NCBI GenBank assembly: GCA_021775005.1
Contig: JAJFIK010000067.1
Location: 1 to 50,385, forward strand
DNA from: Rhodospirillales bacterium
GTDB lineage: Bacteria > Pseudomonadota > Alphaproteobacteria > JAJFIK01
Reading direction: 5' to 3'
DNA length: 50,385 bases
The notes under the pieces are model-generated. The model had not been told where the DNA came from, made no database searches, and saw only the letters and a list, made by a program, of their open reading frames with translations. Numbering within the stretch: the stretch's first letter is position 1; every line of letters starts with the position of its first letter. Positions 34,558-34,615 of the stretch are shown here, piece after piece. The translations under genes were made by a program, and so were the position numbers.

Positions 34558-34615
34558 GAGTCAAGCCGGACTCGCCGTCAAGAGTCTGAAGAGTCTCAAT
34601 GACTTAGGGTGATTC
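34558..34615 (-). promoter_or_regulatory. Cluster of five GANTC methylation sites upstream of ccrM
   Basis: GANTC occurs at 34558-34562 (GAGTC), 34569-34573 (GACTC), 34582-34586 (GAGTC), 34591-34595 (GAGTC) and 34611-34615 (GATTC). All lie within 58 bp, 79-136 bp before the ccrM start. Random expectation for this pattern in 58 bp is about 0.2. In Caulobacter, GANTC sites in the ccrM leader make ccrM transcription sensitive to its own methylation, so this cluster is a likely autoregulatory region. Confidence 0.65.

Follow-up and report, generated by a model that had tools for sequence, protein, structure and literature searches.

GANTC sites held in a fixed register within the predicted ccrM promoter of many Alphaproteobacteria

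The window analyzed here, a stretch of 50,385 nucleotides, is contig 64 of a 2.85-Mb draft genome in 97 contigs. In the named collection, the two genomes closest to it are alphaproteobacterial metagenome assemblies, with CcrM identities of 80 and 78%. On the minus strand of the window lies a gene that an earlier note on this DNA had called ccrM. That call is supported by a match of the product to the NCBIfam model NF050803 (E 2.3e-188, 348 of 350 model positions), though the score of 625 bits falls below the equivalog cut-off of 830. Upstream of ccrM, five GANTC sites start at 34558, 34569, 34582, 34591, and 34611, exactly where the earlier note had placed them, and the nearest is 79 bp from the supported ATG (34479, minus strand), again as that note gave it. 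The features of the locus are as follows; the counts refer to the 130 ccrM upstream regions, or to the 81 aligned promoters among them, that are described below.

33373 to 34479, minus strand: ccrM, GANTC adenine methyltransferase gene, 368 aa; its start is supported by an ATG at the corresponding position in genome G001 of the same genus
34546, minus strand: predicted transcription start, 7 nt past the -10 element and placed from the position of that element
34553 to 34558, minus strand: predicted -10 element CAGGAT; its A (position 2) and T (position 6) are invariant in 81/81 aligned promoters
34558 to 34562, minus strand: GANTC site 1 (GACTC), overlapping the -10 element, +19 from TTGAC; position kept in 81/130 genomes
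34569 to 34573, minus strand: GANTC site 2 (GAGTC), in the spacer, +8 from TTGAC; a spacer site is present in 68/81, at exactly +8 in 34/81
34576 to 34581, minus strand: predicted -35 element TTGACG; TTGAC lies at a fixed distance from GANTC and the -10 element in 81/130 genomes
34582 to 34586, minus strand: GANTC site 3 (GACTC), abutting the -35 element, -5 from TTGAC; a site is at -5 in 13/81
34591 to 34595, minus strand: GANTC site 4 (GACTC), -14 from TTGAC; a site is at -14 in 6/81 and at -15 in 26/81
34603 to 34606, minus strand: TAAG, at -25 from TTGAC, a possible degenerate CtrA half-site
34611 to 34615, minus strand: GANTC site 5 (GAATC), -34 from TTGAC; a site is at -34 in 8/81 and at -35 in 7/81

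A small gene at 34723-35019 (minus strand), between rnhB and ccrM, is named GIY-YIG because it weakly matches a model of group I intron endonucleases. On either side of it are inverted arms of 32 nt (34673-34704 and 35039-35070), 94% complementary and each near-palindromic, which give the segment 34673-35070 the appearance of a small cassette of mobile or REP type. Rfam gave no match at the ccrM locus; elsewhere in the window it identified a glycine riboswitch aptamer (19348-19443, RF00504, 59 bits).

The earlier note had set the five sites against about 0.2 expected in 58 bp. This figure assumes random sequence; the window's own GANTC density gives about 0.07. The window contains 62 GANTC in total, compared with a mean of 179 in dinucleotide shuffles, and this depletion makes the ccrM cluster conspicuous. 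When the 62 sites were placed at random, a 58-bp stretch with five of them arose somewhere in the window in 2 of 20,000 simulations. The concern that many unrelated intergenic regions might be equally dense in GANTC, raised in the earlier note, is not borne out in the host genome, where the ccrM cluster is the tightest five-site cluster among those fetched (58 bp; the next four span 83, 83, 91, and 106 bp). In the whole 2.85-Mb genome, GANTC triples with gaps of up to 20 occur at 19 places, compared with 16 for the reversed pattern. Because this is no enrichment over the reversed control, such loose triples carry little meaning, and they were rejected as genome-wide regulatory marks in this genome, as was the GANTC-N6-GANTC pair (10 compared with 8 for the reversed pattern).

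Comparison with relatives brought out a recurring arrangement. On the minus strand of the window, TTGACG is followed by a 17-bp spacer and CAGGAT, and the first C of CAGGAT is the final base of GANTC site 1. The target sites of the enzyme thus lie where polymerase would bind, in the spacer and at the -10 element. It is well supported that the five GANTC lie within and immediately before a sigma-70-type promoter of ccrM and are not a loose cluster in its leader. A simple promoter scan of the window did not call the ccrM promoter; the CANNNT form of its -10 element is weak by E. coli standards.

The conservation of this arrangement was analyzed in a class-wide draw of 386 genomes, 273 of which have a CcrM match at E up to 1e-60. 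The 130 ccrM upstream regions compared are the best-scoring of these 273 (those given as loci and the next 100 by score), and since they were chosen by score the sample leans towards CcrMs like that of the window. TTGAC-N14-GANTC is present upstream of ccrM in 81 of the 130 alphaproteobacterial genomes, representing 36 of 63 families. When the gap between TTGAC and GANTC was counted across the 130 regions, a gap of 14 was found 81 times and gaps of 2 to 5 were found 87 times in total, with at most 7 occurrences for any other gap from 0 to 40. In all 81 promoters GANTC is directly followed by A, and four positions beyond this A there is a T; neither base is part of the search pattern. These invariant bases, A(-11) and T(-7), define a predicted -10 hexamer CANNNT at 17 bp from the -35 element, so that GANTC would run into the -10. 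Besides the site in the spacer, which 68 of the 81 core promoters have, a GANTC lies within 30 bp upstream in 70 of the 81. Sites at, or at most one base from, the window's positions -34, -14, -5, +8, and +19 were counted in 17, 33, 13, 50, and 81 of the 81 promoters, respectively. Based on these counts, we consider it very likely that the predicted ccrM promoter has the architecture TTGAC, 17-bp spacer, and CANNNT, with GANTC in the spacer and running into the -10 and with more GANTC upstream.

Among the named loci (79 of 80, as the contig of L040 begins at the gene), TTGAC-N14-GANTC is present in 56, and 55 of these also have both the A and the T. In these 79 loci GANTC is 10.6-fold enriched in the 250 bp before ccrM compared with the rest of the loci, whereas the other 15 palindromic five-mers are at most 3.3-fold enriched. 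The core is present in Salipiger bermudensis (L028), Parvibaculum sedimenti (L041), and Paracoccus mutanolyticus (L060), and it is absent from the locus of Caulobacter sp. CCUG 60055 (L096). Of the 49 of 130 genomes that lack TTGAC-N14-GANTC at ccrM, 20 still have a TTGAC that is followed by a GANTC at a distance of 1 to 5 bp.

The number of sites varies. At least five GANTC are found in the 260 bp upstream of ccrM in 51/130 genomes and none in 5/130, and five within 58 bp, as in the window, is uncommon (8/130). The earlier note had proposed that a cluster of five suggests stronger autoregulation; the link to autoregulation stands, whereas stronger control from the number five as such, or in general from more sites, is unsupported by the distribution of site counts across the 130 genomes. 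As judged from these alignments, the conserved feature is position, namely two sites inside the -35/-10 region together with upstream sites, rather than site number.

As a search that makes no reference to genes, the two-site core TTGAC-N1..5-GANTC-N3..8-GANTCANNNT was scanned across the 386 genomes. It gave 133 matches in 116 genomes, compared with 8 for the reversed pattern in the same genomes. Matches were assigned to ccrM by their position relative to the gene or by tblastn on fetched stretches, and 95 of the 133, in 95 genomes, are at ccrM; for the strict 29-base spacing the figure is 90 of 98. Twenty-seven of the 95 ccrM matches are in genomes outside the 130 that defined the motif; in one of these (G366) ccrM is cut by a contig end, and this genome is not among the 273. 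In the host genome, the two-site core occurs only at ccrM. The scan shows the fixed core, as a sequence pattern, to be nearly specific to ccrM. Among the 143 CcrM genomes outside the 130, only 26 have the two-site core at ccrM, and it is therefore less common in divergent lineages. The one-site element TTGAC-N14-GANTC, counted on both strands of three genus genomes, gave 5, 2, and 8 matches compared with 9, 11, and 4 for the reversed pattern; without the second GANTC it is thus unremarkable.

Thirty-eight matches lie away from ccrM, and eight of them are one repeat in genome G346. Of these, 13 were fetched, and Pfam on the 8 followed by a suitable reading frame gave FtsK (two), DivIC, a septum formation family (three), M23 peptidase (two), and ribonucleotide reductase (one). 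The core or a close variant precedes these genes at loci L281, L285, L286, L287, L288, L289, L290, and L291, hinting at a small shared class of cell-cycle promoters. The eight copies of the matching element in G346, six of them close to contig starts, suggest that this repeat is insertion-sequence-like. Three genomes of one family (G009, G226, and G303) have a near-identical TTGAC-GAGTC-GAGTCA element in common, and for G009 there is no CcrM at E up to 1e-60 among the matches listed.

With the enzyme's own target sites in its promoter, CcrM probably senses and limits its own production in each cell cycle. In the mechanism that we propose, CcrM would methylate the adenines of its own core promoter. 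According to coordinates derived from the predicted -10 element, site 1 would carry N6-methyladenine at about -15 (non-template strand) and about -13 (template strand), beside the bases where polymerase starts to open the DNA, and site 2 would carry it at about -26 and -24. Once the ccrM promoter was fully methylated, sigma-70 RNA polymerase would bind or open it less well; the passing replication fork would leave it hemimethylated and active, and newly made CcrM would turn it off again. As hemimethylation would arise with each fork, every round of replication would reset ccrM once. RNA polymerase itself would read the mark, possibly on top of a CtrA-type activation through a TAA[CG] element. 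A conserved ccrM core promoter with negative feedback that is reset by replication, the polymerase reading the mark, is in our view the best overall explanation, one to which we give a little more than even weight. Of its parts, we consider a direct effect of methylation on ccrM transcription likely, and we lean, with less assurance, towards a negative sign for this effect.

The promoter of ccrM in Caulobacter crescentus, the subject of work by Stephens et al. in 1995, reportedly has two GANTC sites and depends on CtrA. Compared with it, the promoter in the window has five sites, a TTGAC -35 element, and sites inside the spacer and the -10. The two are alike in having GANTC at the ccrM promoter, where methylation is thought to affect transcription; citing Stephens 1995, a later paper names ccrM itself as "most probably" under the control of methylation in C. 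crescentus (PMC3973325, in excerpt). A negative effect has a precedent in the gcrA promoter of Agrobacterium tumefaciens, which has 6 GANTC in 250 bp and whose activity drops upon methylation, in E. coli as well (PMC11514494, in excerpt). It resembles the window in having many GANTC before a gene for a cell-cycle regulator and methylation that lowers activity; it differs in the gene concerned and in that no fixed -35/-10 register is reported in the available text of that paper. Promoter methylation also bears on the methyltransferase's own gene in CfrBI, AhdI, and LlaDII, and in CfrBI the target site is in the enzyme's own promoter and its methylation blocks polymerase there (PMC12707154, in excerpt). 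These three are restriction-modification systems, whereas CcrM is a solitary enzyme of the cell cycle, with hemimethylation coupled to replication. The simplest reading of the ccrM core would be that methylation acts directly and negatively on polymerase. Since methylation activates some GANTC promoters, as for ftsZ and mipZ in Caulobacter, whose expression it raises (PMC3708114, in excerpt), the sign at ccrM could also be positive.

Positive control could come from the sigma-70 cofactor GcrA, which favors methylated GANTC located between -35 and -10 elements and might activate ccrM when the core is methylated or hemimethylated. Haakonsen et al. (2015) are said to have described GcrA-sigma-70 promoters with GANTC between the -35 and -10 elements. 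The placement in the window is of this kind, as GANTC sites 1 and 2 lie between the two elements, and the spacer site is placed as in the GANTC-controlled Caulobacter promoters ctrA P1 and podJ P2; GANTC in this interval is also what the core has in common with methylated promoters activated by GcrA and sigma-70 (PMC4287350, in excerpt). GcrA is encoded in all three genus genomes (host genome, PF07750 match, E 2.7e-50). The extended motif of GcrA is given as YGAKTCG (PMC7987155, in excerpt) or YGAKTCK (PMC8725594, in excerpt). The full YGAKTCG occurs within 35 of the 81 cores, and the -10 site reads YGAKTC on the template strand in 80 of the 81, whereas none of the five window sites is YGAKTCG on either strand. 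The core is also as frequent without detectable GcrA as with it: it is present in 17/26 genomes without a PF07750 match and in 64/104 with one (Fisher p 0.82), where GcrA labels were transcribed by eye and absence is uncertain in draft genomes. YGAKTCG is likewise found in 7/17 cores of genomes without GcrA and in 28/64 of those with it. Because neither the frequency of the core nor the motif depends on GcrA, GcrA fails to explain why the core is conserved. GcrA may act on some of these core promoters, and we regard its activation of ccrM through the core as a less likely alternative; a requirement for GcrA, like the GcrA-type control suggested in the earlier note, is unsupported by these comparisons. 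In the gcrA promoters of the three genus genomes (L137, L138, and L139) a TTAAC...TTTACC element is conserved, and after it comes tGATTCg, which matches YGAKTCG exactly.

The GANTC cluster has also to be weighed as a mark for CtrA. If the promoter were driven by CtrA, the bound protein could occlude the cluster and keep it hypomethylated, so that the sites would indicate where CtrA or another factor binds and would not act on polymerase. TAA[CG] starts at -25 or -24 from TTGAC 36 times in the 81 promoters, control of ccrM by CtrA is reported or predicted in Caulobacter, Brucella, and Rhizobia (PMC2877005, in excerpt), and another paper, in the available part of which a term search found no passage on the ccrM promoter, is devoted to GANTC that are locally hypomethylated in Alphaproteobacteria (PMC5172544). 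Near the window promoter, however, the full CtrA box TTAA-N7-TTAA is absent, with no TTAA in 34553-34620, and occlusion needs no sites inside the -35/-10 region in a fixed register. CtrA input at the ccrM promoter is thus possible from its sequence, whereas we consider occlusion improbable as an account of the cluster.

That the cluster arose by chance or by slippage of a short GAAGAGTC-like unit, with GANTC merely over-represented in the intergenic DNA of CcrM-bearing genomes, would fit the AGAGTCT context common to two sites and the lack of genome-wide enrichment of loose GANTC triples, but we give it negligible probability, as the register fixed in 36 families rules out chance clustering and the gene-blind scan recovered ccrM.

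Earlier comparative work counted sites: a 2010 study counted GANTC before cell-cycle genes and held that control by methylation is not derivable from counts (PMC2877005, in excerpt), and a later one counted GANTC before ctrA (PMC8116508, in excerpt). A literature search, with most subscription papers beyond its reach, found no prior description of a fixed ccrM core.

Returning to the feedback promoter read by polymerase, a wider reading is that TTGAC-GANTC-GANTCANNNT is an ancient, almost ccrM-specific alphaproteobacterial promoter at which sigma-70 polymerase would sense N6-methyladenine at the edge of the -10, a replication clock for ccrM, independent of GcrA, that a small number of genes for division and replication (ftsK, DivIC/ftsB, ribonucleotide reductase, and M23 peptidases) would have joined in some lineages; we put this forward tentatively, at somewhat less than even weight. 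Most of what has been established on the coupling of CcrM synthesis to replication comes from Caulobacter, and the sole Caulobacter locus examined here (L096) is without the core. A shared promoter that is nearly specific to ccrM and has the target of the enzyme at fixed bases offers a one-promoter test of a direct effect of methylation on RNA polymerase, in the presence or absence of GcrA and CtrA. The core could also serve as a sequence signature with which to find methylation-timed promoters in unculturable lineages such as that of the host.

Further GANTC clusters were observed in the host genome. On contig 42 (L257:1545-1645) a cluster of 6 GANTC spans 101 bp close to PIN and TPR genes, and on contig 76 (L256:1524-1606) one of 5 spans 83 bp close to an MFS/Atg22-like gene. 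On contig 4 (L258:2239-2491), at one of the four clusters next to ccrM in tightness, seven GANTC lie in about 250 bp between a gene for S-adenosylhomocysteine hydrolase and one for a PAS-HisKA kinase. In this kinase tyrosine replaces the histidine (SYQ), and the protein resembles DivL.
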